From contig JAFLTO010000007.1 in assembly GCA_022510425.1 (NCBI GenBank), positions 62,001-126,000 on the forward strand: a DNA stretch of 64,000 nucleotides. The letters are read 5' to 3'. The translations under genes were made by a program, and so were the position numbers. The notes below the pieces were generated by a model, which saw only the letters and a list, made by a program, of their open reading frames with translations, had not been told where the DNA came from and ran no database searches. Within the stretch, counting starts at the first letter, position 1. Every line of letters begins with the position of its first letter. Of this stretch, positions 264-13,436 are shown piece by piece. This DNA is from Muribaculaceae bacterium (GTDB lineage Bacteria; Bacteroidota; Bacteroidia; Bacteroidales; Muribaculaceae).

Positions 264-321
264 TTCCTAAATTGCTTTGCGATGAAATCAAATGGCAAGC
301 CGAAGAAATCCTGAAACGATA

Positions 322-1020
322 TCAACCGAAATGATTCTTTATATTTATGGCATTGGCCACTCCACCCCGATGTTTGAATGCGATATGAATTGGCCGGTAT
401 ACTAATCGCATTGTACGGCAGTTAGAGTCTTCATGAGGCACAAGATTCATGGCGTTCCTCCATTCCCAGAAATCTTCCGGATTACCGGTTTCTTTAGCCC
501 ATTTGCTAATTGCTGATTTCAGATTTGGCACCATTCTCATTTGTGCTATTTCCTGAAGACTGCTGGGACTTCCTCCCCTTTTCTGAATATTATCCGAAGA
601 GAGAGAATCGTAAAGATCGGAGATATCCACAATAGATCCGGGAAAGGTAACTTTATTGAAATCCGGGCTACCGTGTTCATCGTAAGTGCATTGAGTAAAA
701 CCTTGTTCAGCACATTCTCTATAATTGGGATGTGATGATTTGAGTCGGCATGTCATTTCTCCTGGTCCAATCCATTCAGCATGACTTTTCGGCACTGGAT
801 TCCAGAGAGTCCATTTATCCTCTAAGGCTTCCCAAGTATTTGGTTTCAAAGCCTTCTCCAGTTCCTCGTATTTAGCCCTGTCTTCCTTATAAAGCCGGTC
901 AAGTTCAATCCTTATCTTTTCAAGAATAGCATATTTATCAGCTACCTTCCCGGGAGCATAAAGTTTCTTCTCCCAATCCAAGATCTTATTTTTCCAGTCA
1001 CTATTTGCAAACCAAAGCAT
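322..1020 (-). CDS. HNH/Endo VII-like toxin-type protein
   Basis: This 232-aa soluble protein has no signal peptide. Its C-terminal half looks like the nuclease domains of bacterial polymorphic toxins. HGSPDF at residues 116-121 matches the G-x-PDF strand that opens many HNH/Endo VII toxin domains. LVPHED at 193-198, then H212 and HRGG at 217-220, match the His-rich zinc-finger nuclease core (PHE, IH, H-x-GG). The N-terminal 110 residues are helical and unrecognised. It starts 2 nt after the stop of the 76-aa protein upstream and is the last gene of its operon, a common place for an effector. No obvious immunity gene follows. Assignment to the HNH superfamily rests on motif reading only; catalytic activity is inference. 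Confidence 0.5.
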   Translation of the reverse strand: MLWFANSDWKNKILDWEKKLYAPGKVADKYAILEKIRIELDRLYKEDRAKYEELEKALKPNTWEALEDKWTLWNPVPKSHAEWIGPGEMTCRLKSSHPNYRECAEQGFTQCTYDEHGSPDFNKVTFPGSIVDISDLYDSLSSDNIQKRGGSPSSLQEIAQMRMVPNLKSAISKWAKETGNPEDFWEWRNAMNLVPHEDSNCRTMRLVYRPIHIAFKHRGGVANAINIKNHFG

Positions 1021-1022
1021 AA

Positions 1023-1253
1023 TCAGTCAAGCGGTCTAAAATCGAAATCAATCGGCATACACCCACATTTCTTATAATCGAAATTATAAATTCTTTTATA
1101 AGTTTCAATTATATCATCAATAGACCCACTATTGAAAGGATTGTTAGTATAATTTTTTGTAGTGACCACTACTCTCATAGCAGGAGAAAGGGACTCACCA
1201 TTTATCTGTCTTACCTTCTTAGGAACAATTTCCCATACTTTATGCATTGCCAT
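1023..1253 (-). CDS. Small conserved protein, copy 1 of a duplicated gene
   Basis: This 76-aa protein is of unknown function. It is nearly identical to the 73-aa product at 4119-4340. The first 32 residues after the MA extension are the same in both, and so is the block from IIETYKR to the end apart from one R/K change. Only about 14 central residues differ. The C-terminus carries a CGC motif followed by an acidic PIDFDF segment. The stop lies 2 nt before the HNH-like gene and the start 4 nt after the DUF4112-like gene, so the three are cotranscribed. A specificity, adaptor or immunity-type role is possible but nothing in the sequence proves one. Confidence 0.7.
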   Translation of the reverse strand: MAMHKVWEIVPKKVRQINGESLSPAMRVVVTTKNYTNNPFNSGSIDDIIETYKRIYNFDYKKCGCMPIDFDFRPLD

Positions 1254-1257
1254 AATG

Positions 1258-1806
1258 TTAAAAAATAGAAGAAAATAATCCGTGAAACCAATTATAAATT
1301 GAAACTAATAAATTGAACAAGGCCCAGATAAGCACACCCAATACAATAAGCATTACAGAACCCCATGCGGCACTTTTGTTTATCTGAGAGATGGTCTCAC
1401 TATCGCCTTCTACATATCCCACAATCCAACGTGCCGCTTTCTTATTGGTTTTATAAAACGCATCCACAATATCTCCCACCCCAGGAATTATACCACATAA
1501 AACGTCCAAGACAGTGATATAAAAAATGGCTAGGGTCAATTTAAAGGATTTTACCTTAAACATTGCCACATAAAGAGCCGGAAGAGCAGCTAAAGATGAT
1601 ATTATATCGCCAACACCCGGAATCACCATACCAACAATAGGATCTAAGAACCAATCGTCATATTTTTTAGCCAAATAAACAAGATTGAAAGCTGAAGATT
1701 CTGTTATATTATCTTGATACTCTTCTTCCTCCTTAAAATATCCTTCCACTACTGAAGCCATATTAGTGAAATTGGATATATCTATTTTTTCTATTACCTT
1801 TCCCAT
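1258..1806 (-). CDS. DUF4112-like membrane protein
   Basis: The 182-aa protein has a soluble N-terminus of about 50 residues and then the internally repeated hydrophobic signature IPGVGDI at about residues 62-68 and again at 107-113. The second copy is followed by DAFYKTNKK. This doubled IPGVGD with a following D-x-x-(F/Y)-K-x-N is the DUF4112 pattern. A further hydrophobic stretch fills the last 35 residues, giving three or four membrane segments. DUF4112 proteins are inner-membrane proteins of unknown function. It is tightly packed between the 185-aa protein (1 nt gap) and the small duplicated protein (4 nt gap), so it belongs to the same transcription unit as the HNH-like toxin candidate. 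Confidence 0.65.
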   Translation of the reverse strand: MGKVIEKIDISNFTNMASVVEGYFKEEEEYQDNITESSAFNLVYLAKKYDDWFLDPIVGMVIPGVGDIISSLAALPALYVAMFKVKSFKLTLAIFYITVLDVLCGIIPGVGDIVDAFYKTNKKAARWIVGYVEGDSETISQINKSAAWGSVMLIVLGVLIWALFNLLVSIYNWFHGLFSSIF

Positions 1807-1807
1807 C

Positions 1808-2365
1808 TTAAATAGCTTTTCTTTTCAAAGTAAGTTTTGATGGCAAATCTTTCTTGCCCCACGTGCCATCATATTCGTAAATTTCATCTTCGATATTTGT
1901 TGAAGCCGGATGAAGGCGCCATATTGACTTAGTTTTATTATTTTCATGGCCGAGTTGAATTACAAGATCACCGGTTGATGCATCTACATTCCCATTCAAA
2001 TCCAGTTTTGTGCCATTTTCATTATGATATCTTCCGGCAACCTGACCTTGTGGAGTCAGGAATAATTCCACCTCCACATTATGATTGCTGATATATCCTC
2101 TACCCTCGTATATTACATTTTCTGCTTCAATTTTTTTCTTATAATTATTCCATTTTTTATCACTTCCAAACTGATATTCGGTAGGTTCATACATAGAATT
2201 ATCTTTAACGGGTAACCCCTTTATGGATTGTGATATCACATCATTAGACTTAGAATTTTCTTTTGCGGCATCCATTCTTTGCCATATTCCAAGAGCTGCC
2301 ACAATTACAATTACAAAGAAGAATTGTAAGTTAGCTCTACGAATCACCTTTAAAGTATTAACCAT
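1808..2365 (-). CDS. Membrane-anchored beta-rich protein, unknown function
   Basis: This 185-aa protein has one N-terminal membrane anchor at about residues 12-28 (FFFVIVIVAALGIW). A polar linker follows, then a beta-rich domain from about residue 85: YEGRGYI, VEVELFLTPQG, VAGRYHNENG, and near the end YDGTWGKK. The alternating strand pattern with WxG-like turns recalls small lipocalin-like barrels that report on a ligand, but I cannot assign a family. It follows the coiled-coil gene by 2 nt and precedes the DUF4112 gene by 1 nt. The soluble domain is expected on the outer face of the inner membrane, assuming the usual N-in topology. Confidence 0.55.
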   Translation of the reverse strand: MVNTLKVIRRANLQFFFVIVIVAALGIWQRMDAAKENSKSNDVISQSIKGLPVKDNSMYEPTEYQFGSDKKWNNYKKKIEAENVIYEGRGYISNHNVEVELFLTPQGQVAGRYHNENGTKLDLNGNVDASTGDLVIQLGHENNKTKSIWRLHPASTNIEDEIYEYDGTWGKKDLPSKLTLKRKAI

Positions 2366-2367
2366 AC

Positions 2368-2823
2368 TTAATATTGTGGAATTAATTTTGCAATCAACGA
2401 ATTCAATGAATTATTTGTGATTTCAATCAGAGACATCATCGCCTCCTGGCGTTGAAGACTATTATCGGAGATATCCGTGCTGATAAGCTCCATACTTTTA
2501 TCCATAAGTTTATCCATACGGTCATGGCATCTTTCAAATTGCTTCTCAAGAATTGGCAAAGATTTTTCGTATATCTGGATATCACGTTGAGCTTTAATCA
2601 TCAATGCATCGATAGCTCGTTCCATACGTGCAGTTTCAAGTTCAACCTGTGCTGAAATTTCCTTAATATGCACTATTGTACCGGTAATATTATCAACAAC
2701 TCCTGACACTTTATTGAGCATGCGTTCCGCACATTCTCCTAATTGTTTGTAATCTTCAATGGTTGCGGGCACACCGGGTCGTTCTATACGTTCCAAAACT
2801 TTTTCGTCTTCAAAATTTTCCAT
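2368..2823 (-). CDS. Helical coiled-coil protein, unknown function
   Basis: The 151-aa protein is almost entirely alpha-helical, with long heptad-like runs between about residues 40 and 125 (for example VELETARMERAIDALM and KQFERCHDRMDKLMDK). It has no signal peptide or membrane segment. It follows the 391-aa membrane protein by 20 nt and runs into the 185-aa gene with a 2-nt gap, so it is part of the 4019-322 operon. The composition suggests a scaffold or oligomerisation partner of the neighbouring membrane proteins; this is inference from helix content and gene order only. Confidence 0.55.
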   Translation of the reverse strand: MENFEDEKVLERIERPGVPATIEDYKQLGECAERMLNKVSGVVDNITGTIVHIKEISAQVELETARMERAIDALMIKAQRDIQIYEKSLPILEKQFERCHDRMDKLMDKSMELISTDISDNSLQRQEAMMSLIEITNNSLNSLIAKLIPQY

Positions 2824-2843
2824 ATTATTGTAGATTTAGATAT

Positions 2844-4019
2844 TTAATTAAAAAATGCTTTAAGGGATGCGGTAAGAGCATCTTTCCGTGTGTAATCAAT
2901 TTCAGGTTGATATACTTTGCCACAATAAGATTCAATTGATTCATCTGTGGCCGAAACTGCCTCTATGGTATTTGTAACATGTGTTATCCTTACCTTCTTT
3001 AAACTACTCTTAGTGATCCTGTAAATGGCTATGGCACCTAAAATTCCTAAATTAAGTCCCCAGATAGGATTTGGCACAAGAAATACACATAATAAAACCA
3101 AAATTCCCACAAAAATCCATGCATTGCGAATTATTTTACGTTCGGGATCGAATAGCAATCTGTCAAGAAGCGGAGTCACCTGATTCAAATAATATGGTAT
3201 ACCGGAATTTTGAGATAGAAGGATTCTTATGGGGAAGTTAGACCTCTCAAAATCAATTTGCACCAAAGTATCTTTTAATGAATAAACGGTAAGTTGGGGA
3301 TCTGAAAGAAGCATTATTTGTGCACCCGATAAAAGGCCATCAGAGTCGGCAGCTTGTTCCAAGGCATTATAATGGTTGTTTTTCCCAAACAAATCATTTA
3401 AAATCATATCATTGACGATATAATAATCAGTACGTGTCTGGCCGGAAGTTTGCCTATTGTTTATCCATGCCGAATATTCTGCTTTCAGGTAACCGCATAA
3501 GTTAAGTATGAATAAATTAGTGCGATAAAGCACAAGATATCTTAAGAGTAAATTAGAGACTCTTTCGATTTTATCTTTCCCTTCAGATCTAAGGTCATAT
3601 TTATTGGCCGCTACTGTCTTAAACAAGTTTTTAACTCGAATAAATGTCTTATCTGATTCGGATAAAGCTTTATCAATTTTAGACATATTGAGTTCGGCAA
3701 TACTCCTTTTAGTTGCCATAAAACGATCGAGCATCTTGTTGTGTTCTCTTACGGCTTTCCACTCTCCAAATGCTTCAAGCGTCCTTGCACCAATCTCTGC
3801 GGCCAAATACATTTTATTGGCAGTAGAATCTTTTACACTTAAAATATCTATTGCAGCCGATATACTCGTCTTCACAACTTTAGCATACCCCTTGTAGATC
3901 TCCGGGATTTCTCTTCCGAGCATTTCCAACTGGGGCATTATTTCAGTTTCAAGGCTTTTTACATTAGCTAAAAGTTGTTCGTATTCCTGCAGATTTCCTA
4001 TATTTTGATTGTATTCCAT
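2844..4019 (-). CDS. Helical protein with C-terminal membrane hairpin, unknown
   Basis: This 391-aa protein has a long soluble helical region (residues 1-290, including a coiled-coil-like start EYEQLLANVKSLETEI). Two membrane segments follow at about 297-316 and 320-338 (WIFVGILVLLCVFLV, then a Gly-rich second segment), and a cytosolic C-terminal tail of about 50 residues. It is the first gene of a six-gene minus-strand unit. Its promoter has a good TATATTTG -7 box at 4037-4044, preceded by a palindromic operator shared with two other genes of the island. I do not recognise the family. The shape of a large cytosolic domain with a terminal hairpin resembles many effector or sensor proteins of defence-type operons, which is only an analogy. 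Confidence 0.6.
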   Translation of the reverse strand: MEYNQNIGNLQEYEQLLANVKSLETEIMPQLEMLGREIPEIYKGYAKVVKTSISAAIDILSVKDSTANKMYLAAEIGARTLEAFGEWKAVREHNKMLDRFMATKRSIAELNMSKIDKALSESDKTFIRVKNLFKTVAANKYDLRSEGKDKIERVSNLLLRYLVLYRTNLFILNLCGYLKAEYSAWINNRQTSGQTRTDYYIVNDMILNDLFGKNNHYNALEQAADSDGLLSGAQIMLLSDPQLTVYSLKDTLVQIDFERSNFPIRILLSQNSGIPYYLNQVTPLLDRLLFDPERKIIRNAWIFVGILVLLCVFLVPNPIWGLNLGILGAIAIYRITKSSLKKVRITHVTNTIEAVSATDESIESYCGKVYQPEIDYTRKDALTASLKAFFN

Positions 4020-4036
4020 TTTTATAAAAATATTGG

Positions 4037-4075
4037 CAAATATAATCTAAAATTATGCCAAATGATGACATAATT
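4037..4075 (-). promoter_or_regulatory. Promoter plus palindromic operator, site 1
   Basis: Read on the minus strand, TGTC-N7-GGCA is followed by TAA, exactly 8 nt, then the -7 box TATATTTG (4044-4037). The dyad extends to a 10-bp palindrome arm, AATTATGCCA against TGACATAATT (4051-4060 and 4066-4075, one mismatch). It sits where the -33 region should be, 14-18 nt upstream of the 2844-4019 start. The same arrangement occurs twice at 9685-9782. Confidence 0.75.
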
Positions 4076-4116
4076 AAAATAAAAATGCTATTAATCTAAA
4101 AATCAGAATTGTCTTT

Positions 4117-4350
4117 TTTCAGTCAAGAGGTTTAAAATCAAAATCAATCGGCATACACCCACATTTCTTATAATCGAAATTATAAATTCTTTTATAAGTT
4201 TCAATAATTTCTTCCGCACCATTATAGAAAGGATTACCAACGAAATTTTTTGTGGTGACCACAACTCTCATAGCGGGAGAAAGGGACTCTCCATTTATCT
4301 GTCTTACCTTCTTGGGAACAATCTCCCAAACTTTATGCATTGCAATAATG
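4117..4350. repeat. Direct repeat of 1021-1260 (duplicated gene)
   Basis: About 230 bp repeat the segment at 1021-1260 in the same orientation, with a fully identical block of more than 60 bp covering the 3' part of the gene (about 1045-1106 and 4141-4202). Similarity ends at CAG just past the stop on one side and near CATTGCMATAATGTTA on the other. The copies are 3.1 kb apart and could recombine, deleting everything between them. Confidence 0.85.
4119..4340 (-). CDS. Small conserved protein, copy 2 of a duplicated gene
   Basis: This 73-aa protein is the near twin of the product at 1023-1253, differing mainly in a short central segment (NFVGNPFYNGAEE here, NYTNNPFNSGSIDD there). It follows the Ntn hydrolase gene by 10 nt, so it closes the 8442-4119 unit. 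No partner gene follows directly; instead there is a 99-nt gap with the operator and promoter of the next unit. Nucleotide identity between the copies stops within a few bases of both gene ends, so the gene itself is the duplicated unit. The CGC motif near the C-terminus is kept. Function unknown. Confidence 0.7.
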   Translation of the reverse strand: MHKVWEIVPKKVRQINGESLSPAMRVVVTTKNFVGNPFYNGAEEIIETYKRIYNFDYKKCGCMPIDFDFKPLD

Positions 4351-5598
4351 TTATGTTAAATTAAAATGTTTAATCCATCTAAAACCAGCTGTTTTAGTTA
4401 TGATTGCCACTTCTATTGGCCCACCAACGGATTCTTCTGAAGAAGAAATATGTCTTTGAAGATTTGTTACAGCAATCAAGTTTTCAGCCATTTTAGCCAT
4501 CTCTTCAAGATTAAAGAAATCTAATGCGGTTACTACTCCGCTTATGAAATTTTCATGAATAAAATTATCGATTCTTTCAATGTATCTTTCATGAATCTTT
4601 TCGTAAGTAAGGTCTTTAATTTTTTTAATGATGTTTGGCGAGACCTTTTCTTTTTCGAGAAGTGCGGTTATATCTCCTATAACTCCCTCTTCCAATTCAA
4701 TGGTTGCGTCTCGATATTCCTGATCTGACTGTGGAGAGACTCCTTTCATCAAGGTTATCATAACGTCAGTCTGGGCAAATGGTCTGATTTCAGCACTTGA
4801 AGTATGTGAAATCTCACTAATATCTTCAATATTATATTTTAATTGTGTCCCCGTCATGCCTAGTACATAAATTCGTTGGGAAGCAGGAAAAATATCTTCT
4901 GACCCAAAACCAACAAAAATCAGTTCGCTTTGTTGTGGACCTGAAAAAGAATTGTTGATCAGATCTCTATGAAAAAAATCCAACAAATTATTCCATTCTT
5001 CCTCTGTTATACGGGGAAATTCCTCTCTCTTACGAGAAAAATACTCTTTGCTTGGCTCATAAACCTCTTTATAAAAATCTTTTATGGAAAAATCTTTAAG
5101 TCTTGGATTTATTTCATAGTCAGAAATTATCTCTTTTAATTCCTTAAAGGATTGCTCGTAACAGATACGAAAAACTTCTTCATTTGTTATTTCCGGATTG
5201 CTTTCTGTTACTTCATCATATTTTTTTTCGAAAATAGATCTGAAACTATCGGCCAATTGCTCAAATTCATTTTGATAGAAGACATTCTTAACCTCCTGAG
5301 TTTGTAACCTTTTTATTGATTTAAGATACTTTATAAAATCTTCCACATATCCCGTAAGTTTTGGAAATGTTTGATTCCCTCTCTCAGCTTTATAAAGTTC
5401 GAAAATTAGAGCCCAAGGAGTTGTAAGGAAGTTCAGATTATTACAGATCATCACACCGATTGGGTTTTTGTCGGAGAGTGGAAAAATCTTCTGTTCATTA
5501 TTATAAATCTTTGAACTTCCATTTCCGAAAACGGTCACAGCACTATCTGCTGCTATAGCAGCACCTCTCTTATTCAATACTCCAACTAAAGCCGTCAT
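4351..5598 (-). CDS. Divergent proteasome-type Ntn hydrolase
   Basis: This 415-aa protein begins MTALVGVLNKRGAAIAADS. Removal of Met would expose Thr1. Asp17 and a Lys at 36 of the mature chain then line up with the T1/D17/K33 triad of HslV and proteasome beta subunits (HslV: T-x-x-V-S-V, IAGDG, K33). KIFPL and GVMICNN continue the fold. From about 90 to 215 there is a helical insert absent from HslV. The core resumes with LIFVGFGSEDIFP, and near the end SVGGPIEVAIITKTAGFRW fits the last strands. No propeptide is needed. It overlaps the upstream membrane-protein gene by 4 nt, so the two are translationally coupled. Threonine-peptidase activity is inferred; substrate unknown. Confidence 0.7.
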   Translation of the reverse strand: MTALVGVLNKRGAAIAADSAVTVFGNGSSKIYNNEQKIFPLSDKNPIGVMICNNLNFLTTPWALIFELYKAERGNQTFPKLTGYVEDFIKYLKSIKRLQTQEVKNVFYQNEFEQLADSFRSIFEKKYDEVTESNPEITNEEVFRICYEQSFKELKEIISDYEINPRLKDFSIKDFYKEVYEPSKEYFSRKREEFPRITEEEWNNLLDFFHRDLINNSFSGPQQSELIFVGFGSEDIFPASQRIYVLGMTGTQLKYNIEDISEISHTSSAEIRPFAQTDVMITLMKGVSPQSDQEYRDATIELEEGVIGDITALLEKEKVSPNIIKKIKDLTYEKIHERYIERIDNFIHENFISGVVTALDFFNLEEMAKMAENLIAVTNLQRHISSSEESVGGPIEVAIITKTAGFRWIKHFNLT

Positions 5599-6338
5599 AA
5601 TTTTCTCATTTTAAAAAATGTAACTATTCCTATAATTAGAGGTACTAAAATGACTATCCATCCGGCAAGATCACCAATAAAATACCAGATTAACATAACT
5701 ACAAAGGAAAGTATTACAGCAAATATAGCACAACCATAATTAGCACCTTTTTCTGCACTATCCTCTATTTCTTTTTCTCTTCCTGATAGCCTATTTTTAA
5801 GATCTTTAATTCTATTTTGTTTTGTAGGATAGTATGACCGATAATTAATATCTTCTACTACTTTTAAAGGTATTTCTATTTCCTTCTTATAAGAATCATA
5901 TTTTTTATCTTCAAAATTATTACTCTCAAGCATTTCAAAGGCTCTATTTAATTTTATATAAGCGAGGGAATAATTATATAGAAAAATAATTTCCTGACTA
6001 TGGGAAAGGCCTGTTTCTTTTATTTCACTACAATAGTCTTTTAAGTTCCCCAATACAACGTTAGCATTAAAATAGTCACGGTTATCCACACACCTTTCAA
6101 TTTCGTTTGAAAGATTCTCACAATCCTTAATCAAAATTGAAGTTTTATGATTCTTTAGACTTGTGATAATACCAACAATACATTCGTTTTTTATATCAAT
6201 TTCTGATTTAATCGGTACAAGGCGTCCTTGAGACCTCTTATTTAAATTGAAAGTCCCGATTTCTTGTGCGGTTATGCCTTTATTTGTTACTTTCTTTTGT
6301 TGTAGTTCTCGTATTCGTATTAATTTCTCTTTATCCAT
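5595..6338 (-). CDS. Helical protein with C-terminal membrane hairpin, unknown
   Basis: This 247-aa protein has about 195 soluble, charged and helical residues. Two membrane segments then fill the C-terminus (about 202-221 and 223-243, ending KMRKL). It has no recognised domain. The last 4 nt overlap the Ntn hydrolase start, which implies coupled translation and probably a physical partnership: a membrane-held partner that could position the peptidase at the inner membrane. A 98-nt gap separates it from the TPR gene upstream; I see no TAnnTTTG box there, so it is likely cotranscribed from further upstream. The architecture resembles the 391-aa protein at 2844-4019 in miniature. Confidence 0.6.
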   Translation of the reverse strand: MDKEKLIRIRELQQKKVTNKGITAQEIGTFNLNKRSQGRLVPIKSEIDIKNECIVGIITSLKNHKTSILIKDCENLSNEIERCVDNRDYFNANVVLGNLKDYCSEIKETGLSHSQEIIFLYNYSLAYIKLNRAFEMLESNNFEDKKYDSYKKEIEIPLKVVEDINYRSYYPTKQNRIKDLKNRLSGREKEIEDSAEKGANYGCAIFAVILSFVVMLIWYFIGDLAGWIVILVPLIIGIVTFFKMRKL

Positions 6339-6436
6339 ATAATATATTCAGAAATAATTAATTATCTCCAACATATTTAATTACAATAAGACCCTAAAAT
6401 AGAGATAAGACTAAACTCTTAACTTATGAACTTCAT

Positions 6437-7864
6437 TTAAATACTATTCAATATCTTTTTTTCTATTTCCTGTGCCCTTTCAGAAGATATGTTTAAAGAT
6501 TTTGCCAGTTTATTCAAAAGTCTTCTCTCGCGTTCAGATATGACTCCGTCTTCTAATACCGCCTTCACTTCTTCAGCATACTCTTCTTCATCTTTGGTAA
6601 GAATATTAGGATTACATTGAGCCTCTAATTCTTGAGCTCTTTGCTCGCTTATACCTAGAGATTTACGTAATCTGTCAAGGATTCTTCTTTCCCTATCGGT
6701 GATAATACCATCTTGATAACATAATTTGAGTTCTTCGATGAATTCTTGTTCGAAGTCATTGGCTTTTCTTGAGGCTTCCCTTTGGTTAGTAGAATCGTTC
6801 TCTTCCTTATCAAATGTAAAATTAACTGATCCGGGAATTGTTTCTAAAGTCTCGTTAAACTCTTTTATTATATCTTCGAATAATTCTATAAGATCCGTGT
6901 CTTCTTCTGTTTTTGACAAAAGAGTCATTTGGTTTAAGATTCTTTTAGCCTCGGCTTGATCTTCATTTCTATTGTTTCCAATTACTGTATTACTCAGTAA
7001 TGCAGCCATTTGATTATTCATCAGATCATTCCAATAGAAGAAATCATAATTTTTATTGGGATCAGTAGCATAATGTTTCTCAATCTCAATTTTGGCTAAT
7101 TGATATTCACCTTTTTCCTTAAAACATTCTTTTCTCCACTCGTATTTCCTATATTCGAAGTCACACTCCTTTTCCTCTAATGACTCTATGTGAGAATCCT
7201 GAGCCAAATGCCTCATTTGATTCAAATCATTCTCTAATACCCCTAGATTCCATGAACTATAATCCGACTTAGCTTTTTCCTTTTCCAGATGAATGTCATA
7301 TAAGTATTTCCAATAATAGAAGTCCTTTTTCCCACTATCATATTTATTATAGAAAGCATTTAAAGCTGAAACTGCTCCTGAAAAATTCCTGTTTTCTGTT
7401 TGTCTTTCTATATTTTCTGTGGCGTTATCCCATGCATCCAGATATCTTTTCAGTTCTTTGGCACTTTCGAGTTCTTCTTTGATTGTGGCGGAATCCTCCG
7501 TACCTATAGGGCATGTGTTATAAGATTGCTGAAGATTATTGATAGCCAAATTTAAATTTTCAGTATCACCCATCTGGCGATATGCGTTACCTAAATAGTA
7601 ATAATAGATATAATCTTTAGTTTCGCCTTTATAACATTCTTTTATAAAATCTATGGCACCCTCATAATCACCTTCATTGATATACTCATTATAACTTTCT
7701 GCCAAAGGATGCGTAGTGTCATTATCATCATCTGAGGAGAAAAATCCTTTCACTCCTCGAGCCAAACTGCCTAAGTCTTCTACGGTGCCTCTTACACCTC
7801 TTTCTTGTACATATCCTTTACCAAATTCTTTGGCAAATTCTCCTGCGATTTTCCAAAAACTCAT
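6437..7864 (-). CDS. TPR protein with two C-terminal TerB-like modules
   Basis: This 475-aa cytosolic protein has three parts. An amphipathic N-terminal helix (FWKIAGEFAKEFGKGYV) is followed by TPR-like helix pairs over about residues 55-330 (for example YEGAIDFIKECY and YYYYLGNAYRQMGD). At the end are two copies of a 45-residue helical module at about 372-420 and 427-475. Each has the pattern DG-I/V-I-x-ER-x-LL-x-x-L-x-SL-x-IS-x-x-RA-x-E-x-E. This module resembles short TerB/DUF533-type helical domains seen in bacterial stress and defence proteins. It lies 11 nt after the membrane gene and upstream of the Ntn hydrolase pair. A scaffold or sensor role is likely; the exact function is not known. 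Confidence 0.6.
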   Translation of the reverse strand: MSFWKIAGEFAKEFGKGYVQERGVRGTVEDLGSLARGVKGFFSSDDDNDTTHPLAESYNEYINEGDYEGAIDFIKECYKGETKDYIYYYYLGNAYRQMGDTENLNLAINNLQQSYNTCPIGTEDSATIKEELESAKELKRYLDAWDNATENIERQTENRNFSGAVSALNAFYNKYDSGKKDFYYWKYLYDIHLEKEKAKSDYSSWNLGVLENDLNQMRHLAQDSHIESLEEKECDFEYRKYEWRKECFKEKGEYQLAKIEIEKHYATDPNKNYDFFYWNDLMNNQMAALLSNTVIGNNRNEDQAEAKRILNQMTLLSKTEEDTDLIELFEDIIKEFNETLETIPGSVNFTFDKEENDSTNQREASRKANDFEQEFIEELKLCYQDGIITDRERRILDRLRKSLGISEQRAQELEAQCNPNILTKDEEEYAEEVKAVLEDGVISERERRLLNKLAKSLNISSERAQEIEKKILNSI

Positions 7865-7875
7865 AATCTATTTTA

Positions 7876-8442
7876 TTATTTCATTAAACAAATCATTGTA
7901 ATAAAACCACTGAAAATCACTATATTGGAATAAACTGCGACTCCCCGGCTATAAGCATAAAACATATTGGCATTATAATCATCAACAATACCCCAAAAAG
8001 TATTTTTAAGGCCATTGTCGAACACAGAATCAACAACATTGTCTAAAGTTATTCCGGATGTGGTGGATTCATCTAAAACATTATTTACCCAATTATAGGT
8101 AATTATTCCGCCAAGTACCCCGATTATGATAGGAATCAAACATATTAGAAAGGAAAAACTTTTACCTTCGCCAACCATTTGACTAATAATCATAATTTCA
8201 GCACCTATTGTTGACATAATGCATGAAATAACCATCCATTTTATTGAGGATGCCGACCATCCTCCAAAAATGAATTTCAGTCCTAATAATATTCCACTTA
8301 AAGTCAGAAAGTTAATAAACCAACTATGATTAGGCATAAATAATTCTTCTGCCAAAATCATTGCAAGTAAGGCCATTAACAGACAAATAGCACTTCCAAT
8401 TTTCATCGCATGTACTATACTATAAAATAAAATGTTTTTCAT
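7876..8442 (-). CDS. Polytopic membrane protein, first gene of the Ntn hydrolase unit
   Basis: I place the start at the ATG ending at 8442 (MKNILFYSIVHAMKIGSAIC), giving 188 residues. The longer frame to 8628 adds 62 residues with a Cys-, Trp- and His-rich composition unlike a protein N-terminus and overlaps repeated sequence. Five hydrophobic segments are visible: about 13-30, 40-55, 66-85, 96-115 and 165-185. A polar loop TTSGITLDNVVDSVF lies between the last two. The family is not recognised. It is followed by the TPR gene after 11 nt, so membrane protein, TPR protein, membrane protein and Ntn hydrolase form one minus-strand unit. Confidence 0.6.
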   Translation of the reverse strand: MKNILFYSIVHAMKIGSAICLLMALLAMILAEELFMPNHSWFINFLTLSGILLGLKFIFGGWSASSIKWMVISCIMSTIGAEIMIISQMVGEGKSFSFLICLIPIIIGVLGGIITYNWVNNVLDESTTSGITLDNVVDSVFDNGLKNTFWGIVDDYNANMFYAYSRGVAVYSNIVIFSGFITMICLMK

Positions 8443-8723
8443 ATTACTATTTAGAGGGTTAACACAATAAGAAAAGTGGGAACTCTTTTCAGTTCTCCAG
8501 GTATGATAGGCATCGCCAAACGCCCGATATGACTGAAAAACAGAAGAAAAATGCCCCCACTGATTTGTATACGATCTTACATGATAGCAAGAATACCATA
8601 CAAACAGGAAGAGCGTCCTGGCTTCCATTCTCTCATATCAAAAATTGGCGATTTTATCATACGAGAAGAAAGCGAAACGCTTTTCTTACCGGCCGGCATT
8701 TCTCTTCCGACTCGGTTCGGTTA

Positions 8724-8731
8724 CAAAGTTA
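8724..8731 (-). promoter_or_regulatory. Candidate -7 box for the 8442-4119 unit
   Basis: The minus strand reads TAACTTTG, a full match to TAnnTTTG. It would give a leader of about 275 nt before the start at 8442. No good TTTG is seen at the expected -33 distance, and the dyad operator of the other island promoters is absent here, so this is only a candidate. Confidence 0.35.
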
Positions 8732-8853
8732 AGAATTATTTTTAATCTTCATAACTTTACCGGGCATTTTTCTTAAATTTATAAACATACATAAATAAAA
8801 AAGCGTGAGCCAAATCTGCTTCTAGTCATATAGTTCCAGGTATCGCCAAACAC

Positions 8854-8988
8854 CTAACAAACAAGACTTGAAGAAATTTGCCCCACGTCGATATCAGCAT
8901 TCAGGTCGAAAACCATGTCTTCCGATACGAGTAAAGGGCATTCTTCCACGAGAGTCCGTTTGTTGTTCTTGTTTTGGCGATTTCGGAA
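8854..8988 (-). pseudogene. Decayed coding fragment
   Basis: A 44-codon open stretch with coding-like composition (VEECPLLVSEDMVFDL) ends at a TAG (8856-8854) and is closed upstream by another TAG. It has no credible start. The residues look like the tail of a lost gene, not random sequence, but no family is recognised. Confidence 0.25.
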
Positions 8989-9076
8989 CTATGGACTATC
9001 GGCAAGATGCCTAAATATTTTACAAATTTAGCATCTTTTAACTGAATTCCTATTATTGAAGGCAAATTTCTTCAAG
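8867..9076. repeat. 16-bp perfect inverted repeat, arms 210 bp apart end to end
   Basis: CTTGAAGAAATTTGCC at 8867-8882 is repeated as its exact complement at 9061-9076. The ends of a small MITE-like element would look like this, but I see no clear target-site duplication. The right arm lies just 14 nt beyond the stop of the 9091-9495 gene. One copy of the TTTGGCGAT motif (8970-8992) lies inside. Confidence 0.6.
9004..9037. terminator. Hairpin, likely terminator
   Basis: AAGATGCCTAAAT pairs with ATTTAGCATCTT (12 bp with one bulge) around a 9-nt loop. On the plus strand it is followed by TTTA. It lies 54 nt past the stop of the minus-strand gene ending at 9091 and can serve to end that transcript. 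Confidence 0.45.
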
Positions 9077-9090
9077 AATCACGTTATTAT

Positions 9091-9495
9091 TTATTCGAGC
9101 TTTTGCATAACTGAATCTCTAACATCATTGAATATATCTCTAAAGGTCAATTCTGGTTGAAGTTGAATATCAGCTTCAATAAGAGCCATCATCCCTAAAT
9201 AAGGATTGTTGGAAGCATCTTTCCTCGAAACAGGACAATAATTATGACCCTCTGCCCAATATTTTTCTTCAATAAGATTTATTCCAAAAAAGTTTTCAAA
9301 TTCTTCAATCAAGGTCCTGAGTTCCCCAGGACTTAACTCAAAAATACAAAGGGGAGTATCCAGGTCTCCTGTATAAACTTCTGGTAACTCTTCATTACCC
9401 TCTCCGTCATCATATATAAAATTATGAGTGAAGATGTCTTGCACTAAATAATTAAAGGCTTTTAGAATAATTTGATTAGCATATTCGGTGTTCAT
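9091..9495 (-). CDS. Acidic hypothetical protein
   Basis: This 134-aa acidic soluble protein is of unknown function (Asp/Glu-rich, for example YDDGEGNEELPEVY), with no signal peptide or membrane segment. It follows the 48-aa zinc-ribbon gene by 31 nt and probably shares the operator-controlled promoter at 9685-9692. The high acidity and small size would fit an antitoxin, an immunity protein or an inhibitor, but there is no motif to decide. I note its membership in the same regulon as the membrane and HNH-like genes at 4019-322. Confidence 0.55.
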   Translation of the reverse strand: MNTEYANQIILKAFNYLVQDIFTHNFIYDDGEGNEELPEVYTGDLDTPLCIFELSPGELRTLIEEFENFFGINLIEEKYWAEGHNYCPVSRKDASNNPYLGMMALIEADIQLQPELTFRDIFNDVRDSVMQKLE

Positions 9496-9526
9496 AATTC
9501 TTTGGAATTAAGATGATAGTTAATAT

Positions 9527-9673
9527 TTATCTTATGAGATTAGTCCTCCAATGATGGCATGAAGGACAAGGAGTAAACACACTGAACGGAGGATCTTTTA
9601 AAATGATTCCACCGGTCCAAGTTACAAACACATGTTTGCATTTGGGGCATTTTCTTTTTACAGGCACTAACAT
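9527..9673 (-). CDS. 48-aa zinc-ribbon protein
   Basis: This short gene starts at the ATG ending at 9673 and ends at the TAA at 9529-9527, giving 48 residues. CPKC at residues 9-12 and CPSC at 36-39 form a classic two-knuckle zinc ribbon. HVFVTWTGG lies between the knuckles, and the tail CHHWRTNLIR is basic. A TATCTTTG -7 box lies at 9685-9692, only 11 nt upstream. A longer frame across the same DNA (9540-9764) has no such pattern and is a shadow. Zinc ribbons of this size act in nucleic-acid or protein binding; the partner is unknown. It is the first gene of the unit continuing into 9495-9091. Confidence 0.7.
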   Translation of the reverse strand: MLVPVKRKCPKCKHVFVTWTGGIILKDPPFSVFTPCPSCHHWRTNLIR

Positions 9674-9684
9674 AATTTTTTAGG

Positions 9685-9782
9685 CAAAGATAAAATGATA
9701 TTATGCCAAATGGCGGCAGAATATGATTCTTCTCAAAAAAATATGTTCTGCCACAAAATGACATAATACGGTTCTAATTTTG
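9685..9782. promoter_or_regulatory. Divergent promoters with two copies of the shared operator
   Basis: Leftward: TGCC-N7-GGCA (9718-9704), then TAA, 8 nt and the -7 box TATCTTTG (9692-9685), driving the zinc-ribbon gene. Rightward: TGCC-N7-GACA (9749-9763), then TAA, 8 nt and TAATTTTG (9775-9782), driving 9787. Both keep exactly the spacing seen at 4037-4075. The two operators face each other as a large imperfect inverted repeat (9698-9724 and 9741-9768). The rightward transcript would be nearly leaderless. Confidence 0.8.
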
Positions 9783-9786
9783 CATT

Positions 9787-10185
9787 ATGGAAAAGATTTT
9801 AAGAATAAAGAATCAGGATAGGCTGAGGAAAAAGGTTATTGCCTTAGAAAGCAAGATGAGAAAGATAATGGAAGAGAAATGGCATGGCTATGTCTGGTGG
9901 CAACTTCCATTTAAAATAGACAAAGTGAAGGACCTTTTGGAAATGAGAGCCGGTTATCTTAATCAAATGTTTAGGGCTACCCCTGAAGAGGTGAAACGTC
10001 TTGAAGATCTCAACAATCTCTTTCTTAAGAAAGCCGATGAGATGAGACAGAGATCCGCCATGCTCTATGTTGCTACCAAGCACCAGACTGGCTCATCACG
10101 TTGCTTCGCTATGCATGAGCTGTCTGACATCCTCTTCAAGCTCACCGCGATTATGCGAAGCATAATTGTATCCCAATCGGCTTAG
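9787..10185 (+). CDS. Helical basic protein, unknown, possibly frameshifted at its end
   Basis: The 132-aa product is rich in Lys, Arg and helix formers, with a central WHGYVWWQLPF segment and a coiled-coil-like region (about residues 60-90). No family is recognised. Its start is 4 nt after the -7 box TAATTTTG, so the mRNA is leaderless or nearly so. From 10128 to 10316 another frame stays open and reads as a hydrophobic segment (GIFILIYGFFWLCMF) with a basic tail. That may be the true C-terminus if a frameshift lies near 10130-10185. As drawn, the protein is soluble; in the alternative it would end in a membrane anchor. It shares the island operator. Confidence 0.5.
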   Translation: MEKILRIKNQDRLRKKVIALESKMRKIMEEKWHGYVWWQLPFKIDKVKDLLEMRAGYLNQMFRATPEEVKRLEDLNNLFLKKADEMRQRSAMLYVATKHQTGSSRCFAMHELSDILFKLTAIMRSIIVSQSA

Positions 10186-10346
10186 GAATCTTTATCTTGA
10201 TATATGGGTTCTTCTGGCTATGCATGTTTTCAGCCAATAAGATTACCAATGCTTTCGCAAAAGTTTATAATGTATCAAAAAGACATAATATATTCTGTTA
10301 TATAAATTTTTTATGAGATAATATTTTATATTCCCGAATTTTATTA

Positions 10347-10354
10347 TATCTTTG
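10347..10354 (+). promoter_or_regulatory. -7 box of the higBA operon
   Basis: TATCTTTG matches TAnnTTTG 19 nt before the higB start. The -33 region is AT-rich without a clear TTTG, as expected for a weak promoter repressed by its own antitoxin. Confidence 0.5.
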
Positions 10355-10373
10355 CATAAGCTTATTTGGGATC

Positions 10374-10673
10374 ATGCATGTTATCTCACATAGAAAACTG
10401 AAAGAATTTTATGAATCGCCCGGAATGGAGGATTCAAAAGTAGCTCTGGAGAGATGGTATGATATAACGGAAAAAGCCATATGGCATAATTTAGCAGAAA
10501 TCAAAGAAGATTTTCCTACTACTGATTATGTTGGAAATCAACACTACGTCTTTAATATTAAAGGAAACCATTATAGACTTATAGTGGTAGTTAAATTTAC
10601 AATCGGAAGAGTTTTTATCCGATTTGTCGGCACACATGCCGATTATGATAAAATAGATGCCTCAACCATTTAA
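10374..10673 (+). CDS. higB: HigB-family toxin (mRNA interferase)
   Basis: The 99-aa protein has the HigB (RelE-fold, PF09907-type) layout. MHVISHRKLKEFYE opens the fold, a helix follows with the W at about residue 37, and then NQHYVFNIKGNHYRLIVVV. It ends RVFIRFVGTHADYDKI, which carries the His-x-x-Tyr pair expected at the active site. Members cleave mRNA at the ribosome. The toxin gene comes first and the antitoxin starts 11 nt after its stop, the characteristic reversed order of higBA. It may stabilise the island. Family assignment is firm; activity is inferred. Confidence 0.85.
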   Translation: MHVISHRKLKEFYESPGMEDSKVALERWYDITEKAIWHNLAEIKEDFPTTDYVGNQHYVFNIKGNHYRLIVVVKFTIGRVFIRFVGTHADYDKIDASTI

Positions 10674-10684
10674 GAATTCATTCA

Positions 10685-11044
10685 ATGGAAATAACTAAGA
10701 GACAATATGAATATGCTCTTGCCAGAATAGAAGATCTCTTACCTTTGGTTACAGATGAAACTCCGGCTACTGATCCGGCTTCTATTGAATTGGAAATAGT
10801 TTCTGATATCGTAGAGACTTATGAGAAGATTCATTTTCCCATCGAGAAGCCAACTATTGGAGAATTAATAAGCCTATCCATAGAAGAAAAGGGAATGACT
10901 CAAAAAGAATTGGCCAAAGAATTAGGTATTTCTCCTTCGAGGGTAAGTGAATATATTAACGGCAAATCAGAACCAACATTAAGAATGGCTCGGGCACTCT
11001 GTACGATTCTTGGAATTGCTCCCGCAGCCATATTAGGTCTTTAA
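10685..11044 (+). CDS. higA: HigA-family antitoxin with XRE helix-turn-helix
   Basis: This 119-aa protein pairs with the HigB toxin. The N-terminal half is helical (QYEYALARIEDLLPLV) and the C-terminal half is an XRE helix-turn-helix: MTQKELAKELGISPSRVSEYI followed by GKSEPTLRMARALC and LGI. The domain order, the length and the 11-nt gap after higB fit HigA. It should neutralise the toxin and repress its own promoter near 10347. It is also the only clear XRE regulator in the window, so it is one candidate for binding the shared dyad operator of the island, although that operator is not found in front of higB. Confidence 0.85.
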   Translation: MEITKRQYEYALARIEDLLPLVTDETPATDPASIELEIVSDIVETYEKIHFPIEKPTIGELISLSIEEKGMTQKELAKELGISPSRVSEYINGKSEPTLRMARALCTILGIAPAAILGL

Positions 11045-11404
11045 AACCTAATGTTACATAGACTTATCAAATTTCGGTTGGAACATTGCCAATTAGTATT
11101 GCGAAATCGAGGAGATTGTTTAGAGGACGTCAGACAGCTTGTGCAAAACGAAATGACGTAACAAGCCAGTCTGGTGCTCGTTGGGAAGCAAAACAATCGA
11201 CTCAATCTGTAAAACCTCAATGGTTTAAAAACACAGAAGTTACCACCTTGGCCAAGAACCTCCGGAACACCCGAGGTTGCCGCAATATAGAAATTGACAC
11301 CAACATCCTTGATAAAATCTAAATCTATCATAATTACCAAATTCTGGTACTAAATTTGGTTACTTCCTCATAAATGATTAACTTTGTGAAAACAAAAAAA
11401 AATC
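11045..11404. other. 360-nt intergenic region with hairpins, no supported gene
   Basis: Between higA and hicA there are weak overlapping frames on both strands, none convincing. The sequence can fold. AATTTCG pairs with CGAAAT around an inner GTTGG/CCAAT stem (about 11067-11107), and AACCTC pairs with GAGGTT (about 11258-11277). Composition is more GC-rich than the neighbours. It could be a structured RNA or the remnant of a mobile piece. Its right end holds the hic promoter and operator. Confidence 0.4.
11336..11386 (+). promoter_or_regulatory. hicAB promoter and operator
   Basis: TTTG (11355-11358), a 20-nt spacer and TAACTTTG (11379-11386) form a complete Bacteroidetes promoter 18 nt before hicA. 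The inverted repeat ACCAAATT (11336-11343) and AATTTGGT (11353-11360) covers the -33 element, so a HicB dimer bound there would block transcription. Confidence 0.7.
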
Positions 11405-11656
11405 ATGAGTAAGAAAGAAAAGTTGATTGCACGATTACTTTCCTTTCCTAAAGATTTTACATATGATGAAATGAAAACTCTTTTAGGATATTTGGGTTTT
11501 GAGGAAGATAATAAGGGTGCTACATCGGGTTCAAGATTACAATTTATTAAAGATGAACATACAATTTTACTTCACAAACCTCATCCCGGCAATCAGCTTA
11601 AACCTTATCAAGTGAAAAATGTTGTAATTGAATTAAGAAACTTAAAACTTATCTGA
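11405..11656 (+). CDS. hicA: HicA-family mRNA interferase toxin
   Basis: The 83-aa protein has the double-stranded-RNA-binding-like HicA fold. FPKDFTYDEMKTLLGYLGF is the first helix-strand unit, then comes TSGSRLQF where most HicA proteins carry the catalytic His (GSH), and then the conserved HKPHPG. The Arg in place of His recurs in this Bacteroidetes branch as far as I recall, so the toxin may still be active through the HKPH histidines. It is followed after 1 nt by hicB, and the pair is tightly coupled. Confidence 0.85.
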   Translation: MSKKEKLIARLLSFPKDFTYDEMKTLLGYLGFEEDNKGATSGSRLQFIKDEHTILLHKPHPGNQLKPYQVKNVVIELRNLKLI

Positions 11657-11657
11657 T

Positions 11658-12002
11658 ATGGGTTACATGAAATATAAAGGTTACAAAGGTTCTGTAGAAT
11701 ATAGTCCTGAAGATAGATGTCTGTTTGGAAAAGTTCAAGGTCTTTTTGGTACTTTGATTTCTTATGAAGGAGAATCTGTAGAAGAAATTAAAAAAGATTT
11801 TGAAGGAGCCATAGATGATTATTTGGAAAGTTGTGAAAGAAGAGGTATAGCACCGGCCAAACCATACAGCGGCAAATTAAATCTACGGATGCCGTCAGAA
11901 CTTCATGCTGCTATAGCCACCGCTGCTTCCACAAGCGGAACCACTATCAATGATTTTATCAATAAATCTATGAGGGAAGTGGTGCATCTAGCTCAACGAT
12001 AA
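11658..12002 (+). CDS. hicB: HicB-family antitoxin
   Basis: This 114-aa protein has the partial RNase-H-like HicB domain (YKGSVEYSPEDRCLFGKVQG, then SVEEIKKDFEGAIDDYL). A C-terminal ribbon-helix-helix segment follows (KLNLRMPSELHAAIATAA, then TTINDFINKSM), which binds DNA. It neutralises HicA and is expected to autorepress through the inverted repeat at 11336-11360. Length and order are standard for the family. Confidence 0.9.
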   Translation: MGYMKYKGYKGSVEYSPEDRCLFGKVQGLFGTLISYEGESVEEIKKDFEGAIDDYLESCERRGIAPAKPYSGKLNLRMPSELHAAIATAASTSGTTINDFINKSMREVVHLAQR

Positions 12003-12017
12003 TCCCGACCAATTTCC

Positions 12018-12206
12018 ATGAAATTTAAATCTCAGATCCGAAGATTAAAAGAATTTCTATCAAGCTGGTTCTCTTATTTTCCAGTTTTATATCGAGCCTA
12101 TGACTTTGATTATACCAGTATTTTAGAGGTTGAACGGCATCAAATCAGCCGGGTAAGAGATTGTATCGCAAAATATCACAGTCATTTAAATTGGGAGAGA
12201 GATTAG
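12018..12206 (+). CDS. Short hypothetical protein
   Basis: This 62-aa protein starts 15 nt after hicB. The segment WFSYFPVLYRAYDFDYTSILEVE followed by a helix ending in ISRVRDCIAKY resembles small accessory proteins of Bacteroides mobile DNA that read PVLWRDxDFDY. Those are usually longer, so this copy may be shortened. It has no signal peptide. It could be cotranscribed with hicAB. Confidence 0.45.
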   Translation: MKFKSQIRRLKEFLSSWFSYFPVLYRAYDFDYTSILEVERHQISRVRDCIAKYHSHLNWERD

Positions 12207-12375
12207 GTATAAAATATCTTTATATAAACAATATAAATCAAAAAGCGAATAATTCCCTGATTATAACACTTTATTAAATAGATCAAATATATTCCAGATA
12301 ATCTCTATTTCTATTATGGCAGTTTTATTGTAGTTTTGGAGATTCAATAATTATTCAATTTTGGGGATATTTTTC

Positions 12376-12383
12376 TAATTTTG
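12376..12383 (+). promoter_or_regulatory. -7 box for the 12426 lipoprotein gene
   Basis: TAATTTTG matches the consensus 43 nt before the ATG at 12426. It overlaps the first codon of the longer frame that starts at 12381, which supports the downstream start. Confidence 0.45.
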
Positions 12384-12425
12384 AAAAAATATCTCTTTTA
12401 CTGTTTCATAAAATTATATTTTGAT

Positions 12426-12959
12426 ATGAAAAGACTTCAATTTTGGGAATTTATAGGAAGCATATTGATAGCTCTTACTTTTACATCTTGCAATGACAAT
12501 GATGATGTGATTTGGGATTATTCTCCGGTTATTTTTGAAGTTCTTGTAGAGAATTCTCAAGATGAAAACCTTCTTGATGAAAACACCGCGGGAAATATAC
12601 TAGGCACAGAGATGTATGTGATCTTTGAAAATGAAAAATTCGACGTTACTTATGGATGGCCAGATGACCCCTATTTCCCTTATCCTTATTCCTCCCGGGC
12701 CTATATGCCTTCATGGTGGGGAGCCTTCATTGCGCCCTATTTTTACGACTATTCCGACCTTCACACACGTGGAAACCGATTATATATAGGTGAATTTTTC
12801 GGAGACTCCTACGGAGAAACAAAATTTGAACTCTACCTTGACGGTCATAGATATGAAATTTCCTATACCAACAAAATTCCCAAACCCGGAAAGGTTGACA
12901 GGCATTTTTTCCTTGACGGAAAAGAAATCCCTTCATCCAATATCACTCTAATTTTATAG
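12426..12959 (+). CDS. Lipoprotein, unknown function
   Basis: With the start at 12426 the protein is 177 residues. A signal peptide MKRLQFWEFIGSILIALTF leads to the lipobox TSC, followed by the acidic NDNDD stretch typical of surface lipoproteins in Bacteroidetes. The mature part is aromatic-rich (YFPYPYSSRAYMPSWWGAF) and beta-like, with EFFGDSYGETKFELYLDG resembling a small sandwich. No family is recognised. It stands alone, with decayed coding sequence immediately downstream. Confidence 0.6.
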   Translation: MKRLQFWEFIGSILIALTFTSCNDNDDVIWDYSPVIFEVLVENSQDENLLDENTAGNILGTEMYVIFENEKFDVTYGWPDDPYFPYPYSSRAYMPSWWGAFIAPYFYDYSDLHTRGNRLYIGEFFGDSYGETKFELYLDGHRYEISYTNKIPKPGKVDRHFFLDGKEIPSSNITLIL

Positions 12960-13150
12960 GGTTACACAGAAATTTCTGGATACTAAAAATCTTAAGAATC
13001 CGTATCCTAAGTTTGAATTTGATTATGAAGAGGAACGTCTGTTCAACACGTTCGAAGAAGCTTTCAATTATATACAATCGAATAAGAATGAAGACGTTTA
13101 TTGCAGTTGGATTACCCAGATTCCTAATGGTGTGATAGGAAGGCTCAATT
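12952..13150 (+). pseudogene. Decayed coding fragment
   Basis: The frame is open without a start codon and reads like real protein (NPYPKFEFDYEEERLFNTF, then FNYIQSNKNEDVYCSWI) up to about 13150. It then runs antisense into the small lipoprotein gene. It overlaps the stop of the 12426 gene in another frame, so it is probably the stump of a gene whose 5' part was lost. Confidence 0.35.
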
Positions 13151-13436
13151 ATTTTCCTTCCTCCTCTTTTTTGTCAAGGTCAGTGGATTTTTCTTTCAAC
13201 TTATGTTGCAATGTCTCTTCATAAGCCTCAATTTCTTTTTCAGCCTTAGTAGGTTCTTCGTCCGGTTTCTTCCTTTTCAATAAATTTGTCAATGCACCGA
13301 AAAATACTCCTCCCAACAACAGGCCCAAGAATACCCAAAATAGCCACCCGGTTTCCATCTGGCCGGTTTGATCATTTGCCACACAACCTTGAAACAAGGG
13401 AATCATTATTAAAAAGTATATAAATTTTCTTTTCAT
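13149..13436 (-). CDS. Small lipoprotein with membrane segment and charged tail
   Basis: This 95-aa protein has a signal MKRKFIYFLIMIPLFQ and a lipobox-like GC. A second hydrophobic segment (WLFWVFLGLLLGGVFFGAL, about residues 31-49) follows, then a highly charged helical tail (EKEIEAYEETLQHKLKEK). If the lipobox is used, it is tethered twice. Alternatively the first segment is a plain anchor. Function unknown; similar one-off proteins occur beside toxin-antitoxin and mobile regions. Confidence 0.5.
   Translation of the reverse strand: MKRKFIYFLIMIPLFQGCVANDQTGQMETGWLFWVFLGLLLGGVFFGALTNLLKRKKPDEEPTKAEKEIEAYEETLQHKLKEKSTDLDKKEEEGK

Follow-up and report, generated by a model that had tools for sequence, protein, structure and literature searches.

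Sites and genes at the locus

We analysed a 64,000-nucleotide stretch of a Muribaculaceae bacterium (contig JAFLTO010000007.1, positions 62,001 to 126,000; hereafter the window), in which an accessory island carries three promoters composed of a dyad, TGYC-N7-GRCA, and a -7 box, TAnnTTTG (sites 1 to 3, Table 1). The first-pass annotation had described them as TGYC-N7-GRCA-TAA-N8-TAnnTTTG at minus 4070-4037, minus 9718-9685 and plus 9749-9782, and coordinates, strands and pattern all proved exact. That one architecture is used three times lies far above chance, 100 dinucleotide-preserving shuffles of the window giving a mean of 0.00 matches. Across the whole genome (G000; 2,925,726 bases in 66 contigs) the same pattern has three exact matches, all in the island, and its reversed control none, so that it does not occur at random frequency.

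Relaxing the search to three mismatches returned 28 matches, compared with 15 for the reversed pattern, and distant near-matches elsewhere in the genome are for this reason mostly noise. The sole match with one mismatch (C64:60723-60756, the mismatch falling within TAA) lies approximately 1.25 kb to the left of the window; its box ends 14 nt ahead of the ATG of a 306-amino-acid (aa) WYL-domain regulator, and because of this position we do not count it as noise. The search listed all matches with three mismatches or fewer and therefore included the motif with the TAA positions free; dyad and box are both intact at only these four places in the genome. Three matches with two mismatches (C12:136692, C23:33118 and C66:1821) were not accepted, their dyad or box being broken.

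Six genes follow site 1, encoding in order the 391-aa, 151-aa, 185-aa, 182-aa (DUF4112), 76-aa (DUF6140) and 232-aa (WHH-type) proteins. Site 2 precedes the 48-aa zinc-ribbon gene, whose orthologues in G167 and G189 are likewise preceded by a site, and the 134-aa gene. The unit may run longer than the two small genes of the earlier description: RNA2, RNA1 and five genes, the last encoding a second DUF6140 protein, continue on the same strand to 4119, and no further site of this type occurs on that strand between site 2 and 4119. Scans for sigma-70 promoters (43 promoter-like against 41.9 expected) and for terminators (9 terminator-like against 5.9 expected) were uninformative. Longer relatives (261 and 279 aa) of the 132-aa protein behind site 3 also stand behind sites, in L084 and L101.

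Table 1. Sites, genes and folded RNA-like blocks of the island (window coordinates unless a genome or locus is given)
Feature	Position	Strand	Remarks
Site 1	4037..4070	minus	dyad 4070-4056, N11, -7 box TATATTTG 4044-4037; 17 nt ahead of 391-aa gene
Site 2	9685..9718	minus	dyad 9718-9704, N11, -7 box TATCTTTG 9692-9685; 11 nt ahead of zinc-ribbon gene
Site 3	9749..9782	plus	dyad 9749-9763, N11, -7 box TAATTTTG 9775-9782; 4 nt ahead of 132-aa gene
WYL regulator gene, intact, 306 aa	G000:C64:60765-61682		left of window; own site at C64:60723-60756
WYL 3'-end remnant (KLLCDEIKWQAEEILKRYQPK stop)	272..334	plus	overlaps end of 232-aa nuclease gene; reading frame and DNA comparison
232-aa WHH/HNH-type nuclease-like protein	322..1020	minus	last gene behind site 1; Pfam and alignment
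76-aa DUF6140 protein	1023..1253	minus	28.1 bits, cut-off 27
182-aa DUF4112 protein	1258..1806	minus	E 2.4e-13
185-aa protein	1808..2365	minus	no Pfam family
151-aa protein	2368..2823	minus	only weak coiled-coil-type Pfam matches
391-aa protein	2844..4019	minus	first gene behind site 1
73-aa DUF6140 protein	4119..4340	minus	possible last gene behind site 2; 27.8 bits, cut-off 27
415-aa protein	4351..5598	minus	distant relatives on 10 plasmid records
247-aa protein	5595..6338	minus	no confident family
475-aa protein	6437..7864	minus	weak TPR/TerB/ENT matches; C-terminus matches PDC-S48, a candidate phage-defence model, E 4.6e-10
Protein starting MKNILF	7876..8442	minus	longer 250-aa open reading frame (to 8628) reads into RNA1
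RNA1, folded RNA-like block	8460..8760	minus	z -6.0; 86-91% nucleotide identity in G167, G189, G308
RNA2, folded RNA-like block	8815..9060	minus	tandem with RNA1; z -6.1
134-aa protein	9091..9495	minus	no Pfam family
48-aa zinc-ribbon-like protein	9527..9673	minus	first gene behind site 2
132-aa protein	9787..10185	plus	behind site 3
RNA3	L092:12830-13190	minus	
RNA3	L095:10624-10974	plus	85-89% identical to L092 copy
RNA3	L101:10711-11060	plus	85-89% identical to L092 copy
RNA3	L039:7840-8194	minus	85-89% identical to L092 copy

The motif at loci of WYL orthologues

The regulator encoded behind the fourth site contains a WYL domain (PF13280; E 4.2e-14, 52.7 bits, cut-off 21.8) and a WCX C-terminal extension (PF25583; E 1.6e-07, 32 bits, cut-off 23.9). 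Some WYL match exists in at least 389 of 397 genomes of the family, and close orthologues of this regulator, clearly set apart from the many other WYL proteins, were found in 23 of them, its own included, among the matches listed (at least 47% identity; in G199 and G216 the match covers part of the length). Its named relatives come chiefly from Muribaculaceae metagenome assemblies.

Up to approximately 20 kb were fetched around each of the 23 orthologues (385,705 bases in total), and TGYC-N7-GRCA-N11-TAnnTTTG gave 44 matches, spread over 21 of the 23 loci, against 0.0 expected from block shuffles. Scanning spacings of 4-20 nt between dyad and box gave 11 nt in 44 cases, 9 nt in one, and no other. 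All 44 site 34-mers are distinct, 22 being left after those with eight or fewer differences were removed, and the 11 nt between dyad and box are near random, with no strong preference. TAA, which had been taken as part of the shared signal, is carried by only 6 of the 44 and must be dropped from it; the constant part of the motif is the dyad, exactly 11 nt and TAnnTTTG. An exact site lies 8-105 nt ahead of the orthologue's own ATG in 12 of the 20 orthologues with an intact start, and those of L086, L088 and L094 have, 16-27 nt ahead of the ATG, a site that departs from the motif at one or two positions.

The distribution of the strict dyad without gaps follows the orthologues in a set of 80 genomes (15 of the 23 with an orthologue, 6 of the remaining 57; p 1.9e-6). 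The reversed control occurred in three genomes, all among the 57. The dyad continues into N11-TAnnTTTG in 14 of these 15 orthologue genomes and in none of the six others. Exact TAA-type sites number ten, in 8 of the 397 family genomes (control 0), and half of these eight genomes have a close orthologue (p 5e-4).

A number of observations weigh against assigning the sites to this regulator. Loci L099 and L100 lack any site; the orthologues of L087 and L089 have their nearest site some 300 nt upstream, and those of L090, L097 and L102 (3 of 20) have no adjacent site. The comparison of 80 genomes is only partly independent, as 13 of the 15 dyad-bearing orthologue genomes already belonged to the set that defined the motif; the other two disagree, the box being present in G271 (contig 26) and missing in G058 (contig 25). 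Residues 1-120 of the regulator gave no Pfam match for an N-terminal winged helix-turn-helix. Finally, G082, G098, G193 and G295 carry exact TAA-type sites and no close orthologue; sites of this kind must therefore also serve other WYL proteins. Behind these sites stand genes for two relatives of one protein (493 and 318 aa), an open reading frame of unclear nature and a gene for a 163-aa protein that we take to be exonuclease-like.

Among 40 more distant WYL genes, 15-bp palindromes (at least five of seven pairs) stand at 8 of 42 -7 boxes at a spacing of 11, against 0-3 at any other spacing between 5 and 18; they carry other half-sites, and most of the 40 genes have no clear dyad. This pattern suggests that the dyad-N11-box geometry applies generally to the family's WYL regulators, and the differing half-sites of the WYL subgroups may possibly form a half-site code.

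The WYL subgroups that show this geometry with different half-sites include those with TATCAYGAAATGATA, TGCCATGTTTTGGCA and TCCCAYGAAATGGGA (L105, L123, L108, L116, L120, L111, L127, L129 and L132; L081 and L082). A further site with the N11 box (L159, G271 contig 26:10326-10340) lies far from the WYL locus, ahead of the gene for a 464-aa ATPase, presumably MoxR/RavA-like.

Promoter register and mode of regulation

In Flavobacterium the TAnnTTTG box occupies -12 to -5 (PMC9723704). Set in this register, the 15-bp dyad spans -38 to -24 and is centred near -31, where it covers the -33 element; TGRCA, the downstream half-site, has its centre at -26. A -33 TTG at 17-23 nt from the box is found at none of the 44 sites, against 99 of 423 boxes at these loci, a difference partly forced by the motif itself and to that extent a caution against what follows.

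We consider it probable that the sites are bound by a homodimeric WYL-domain activator encoded just left of the window. Activation is favoured because the rigid spacing and the position over -33 resemble DriD, PafBC and SiwR more than BrxR and CapW; by the same tokens the earlier term 'operator', if taken to mean a site for a repressor, finds no support. Published accounts describe DriD of Caulobacter as a homodimeric WYL activator whose sites lie at one distance from -10 and overlap -35, at promoters with a poor -35 (preprint PMC12340889), and PafBC of mycobacteria as engaging a -26 motif by sigma adaptation, SiwR acting likewise at -26 (PMC11804915, PMC10693628). The present regulator shares with DriD the WYL and WCX domains and the constant distance at promoters with a poor upstream element, but it belongs to another phylum, its promoters are of the -7 type and its regulon is a local island. 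With PafBC and SiwR it shares the -26 position, here that of the downstream half-site; PafBC is, however, a heterodimer that in those accounts does not bind its promoter without polymerase, whereas a symmetric dyad is kept here, and because this symmetry is conserved the regulator likely acts as a homodimer. Among solved structures, a profile of 16 orthologues matched PafBC best (4.5e-13), then DriD (8tp8, 1.1e-5), BrxR (7qfz, 5e-4) and CapW (4.5e-3). This order carries little weight, since PafBC has two WYL domains, and it also tempers the case.

In the mechanism we propose, a WYL homodimer would bind the dyads at all four promoters, its WYL domains would take up nucleic acid as ligand, probably single-stranded DNA arising through damage or an attacking phage, and the ligand-bound dimer would hold RNA polymerase on these promoters. 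It would thereby switch on its own gene and the island, with its DUF6140 and membrane/TPR/TerB-like proteins, structured RNAs and WHH-type nuclease.

The strongest competitor keeps the same WYL protein but makes it a repressor like BrxR or CapW, blocking polymerase at the -33 region until a ligand releases it. Both of these proteins repress defence operons from promoter palindromes (PMC9122601, PMC9122588) and so resemble the present case as WYL regulators of defence loci on inverted repeats; a site ahead of the regulator's own gene would fit negative autoregulation, and an island bearing a nuclease would need silencing. Yet a repressor needs no fixed distance to the -7 box, and 11 nt separate the two in 44 of 45 dyad-box pairs, with the intervening sequence varying freely. 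In those accounts, moreover, CapW sites overlap -10 and the BrxR site lies downstream of it; no such position is seen here, each of the 44 dyads standing 11 nt ahead of its box and over -33, and the relation of BrxR and CapW to the regulator is the weaker one by profile. Repression thus appears unlikely to us, though it deserves to be taken seriously.

Two other explanations dispense with the WYL protein. An alternative sigma factor could itself recognise the dyad as part of the promoter, with no dedicated regulator involved; bipartite promoters typically have a fixed spacing to the -7 box, as here, but the box is the ordinary TAnnTTTG, and the upstream element is a twofold dyad that goes with WYL genes and whose variants differ between WYL subgroups, which makes this account very improbable. 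The HigA-type antitoxin (10685-11044), proposed earlier as a candidate, is the only clear helix-turn-helix DNA-binding protein in the part of the window examined, and its gene lies 0.9 kb from site 3. But HigB/HigA-type clusters occur at only 2 of the 23 motif-bearing loci, the HigBA genes have no site directly in front (none directly before 10374), and the motif goes with the WYL orthologues. Control by HigA is therefore rejected as the least probable of all, and the regulator of the sites is very probably the WYL protein. The notion of one regulator for three units is supported. WYL regulons as such are already known; the observation stands, stronger than first claimed, with its regulator misassigned. 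A vague shared operator has become a named regulator with a defined site and a testable spacing rule, and dyad-N11-TAnnTTTG offers a DNA signature for finding WYL-controlled islands in Bacteroidota.

Nucleases, folded RNAs and the island border

For the 232-aa protein the earlier name, an HNH-like toxin, is only partly supported: it shares the core HED-x(n)-H-x4-H-x-G with the nuclease-like proteins that take the same place in other islands, but its match to Pfam WHH (PF14414; E 8.4e-5, 22.7 bits) falls below the cut-off of 25.1. Proteins in the effector place are of three types, c4 (own genome, G167, G189 and G308), c2 (L086, L089, L093 and L097) and c10 (L092, L095 and L101), and H196, E197, D198, H212, H217 and G219 are invariant in six aligned proteins of the three types. 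Their likeness to WHH/HNH nucleases resides in this C-terminal HED...H....H.G core; as to differences, the c10 type scores 31.5, above the cut-off, whereas the own c4 protein and its G308 relative remain below it and the c2 type has no Pfam match.

RNA1, RNA2 and RNA3 keep 74-91% identity between copies, and one-base insertions or deletions break any reading frame. RNA3 is misread as protein by simple open reading frame callers, and the start of the 250-aa frame at 8628 is probably not the true start of the MKNILF protein. The best-window z of RNA3 is -5.8 in L092 and -8.5 in L101, each picked as the most extreme among several windows scored with 30 shuffles. Rfam 15 gave no credible match in window positions 1-14000, nor in L084, L089, L092, L093 and L095 apart from two tRNAs. 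Covariation is weak for both RNA1 (4 of 98 pairs changed on both sides in four sequences, term -1.06) and RNA2 (6 of 70 in five sequences, term +1.64, unfavourable), and the folds are not proven by it.

RNA2 occurs in 6 of the 23 orthologue genomes and in none of the 57 others (p 3.4e-4); G308 yielded no more than a 38-nt match. At the 23 loci, RNA and nuclease coincide at ten, with only RNA at L039 (its sequence partly masked), only nuclease at L097 and neither at 11; the p value of 1e-4 is flattered, as the loci are related. RNA1 and RNA2 pair with c4, RNA2 also with c2, and RNA3 with c10. At the RNA-bearing orthologue loci the RNA lies downstream of a site and on the same strand; around the RNA2 copy of G058 contig 93, the flanks examined contain no site at up to one mismatch, so the link between RNA and site is not universal.

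The controlled islands are modular, combining varied membrane, GTPase or TerB-like proteins with DUF6140, a WHH/HNH-type nuclease and long folded RNAs. PADLOC returned candidate or partial matches only: PDC-S48 (the own 475-aa protein, 4.6e-10; a 654-aa protein of L086, 1.1e-4), PDC-S30 (L095, E 6.8e-70), and PDC-S29 and LeoBC for the GTPase of L089. The 415-aa protein has nearly full-length relatives at 25-29% identity on plasmids of Rhizobium, Pantoea, Enterococcus, Mesorhizobium and Ruegeria and no meaningful relative among solved structures; its start (MTALVGVLNKRGAAIAADSAVT) recalls what we take to be proteasome-type Ntn hydrolases.

The four promoters point to one WYL-type protein that probably switches on a variable island, equipped with long folded RNAs and a nuclease; the island may represent a bacterial conflict or defence system of a new kind. 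In the literature searched, which did not extend to subscription papers or to preprints outside PubMed Central, we found no described WYL regulon in Bacteroidota, no mention of DUF6140 and no paper combining 'WYL domain' with 'Muribaculaceae'; searches pairing WYL with Bacteroid-, defence, structured RNA or TerB, or WHH nuclease with structured RNA, gave no paper on such a system among the matches listed. We tentatively envisage, as a possibility rather than an expectation, a new modular conflict or defence island of Muribaculaceae in which a nucleic-acid-sensing WYL activator would act through rigid dyad-N11-(-7) promoters. Its invariant partners would be a long rod-shaped RNA (RNA1, RNA2 or RNA3) and the WHH-type nuclease whose type matches it, the sensor or membrane proteins between them being exchangeable; the role of the RNA would be to restrain, guide or trigger the nuclease. 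Three folded-RNA families without Rfam match travel with WHH-type nucleases, and if RNA and nuclease do form one system, it would be an undescribed RNA-containing conflict system in common gut bacteria.

In G167, G189 and G308 the WYL and nuclease genes are convergent and their ends overlap by approximately 12 nt; in the own genome a fragment at window positions 3-263 lies between the regulator and nuclease genes. From the overlap in these relatives and the WYL remnant at 272-334 it follows that the regulator belongs to the island, a later insertion having apparently pushed it out of the window. The segment at 3-334 (plus strand) comprises this fragment of another protein, presumably ATPase-like, inserted beside the duplicated WYL 3' end, and the two together may be read as traces of recombination at the island border. 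On the plus strand, HigB/HigA (10374-11044) and HicA/HicB (11405-12002) toxin-antitoxin pairs adjoin the island, and HicAB-like genes are also close to the WYL locus in L088.

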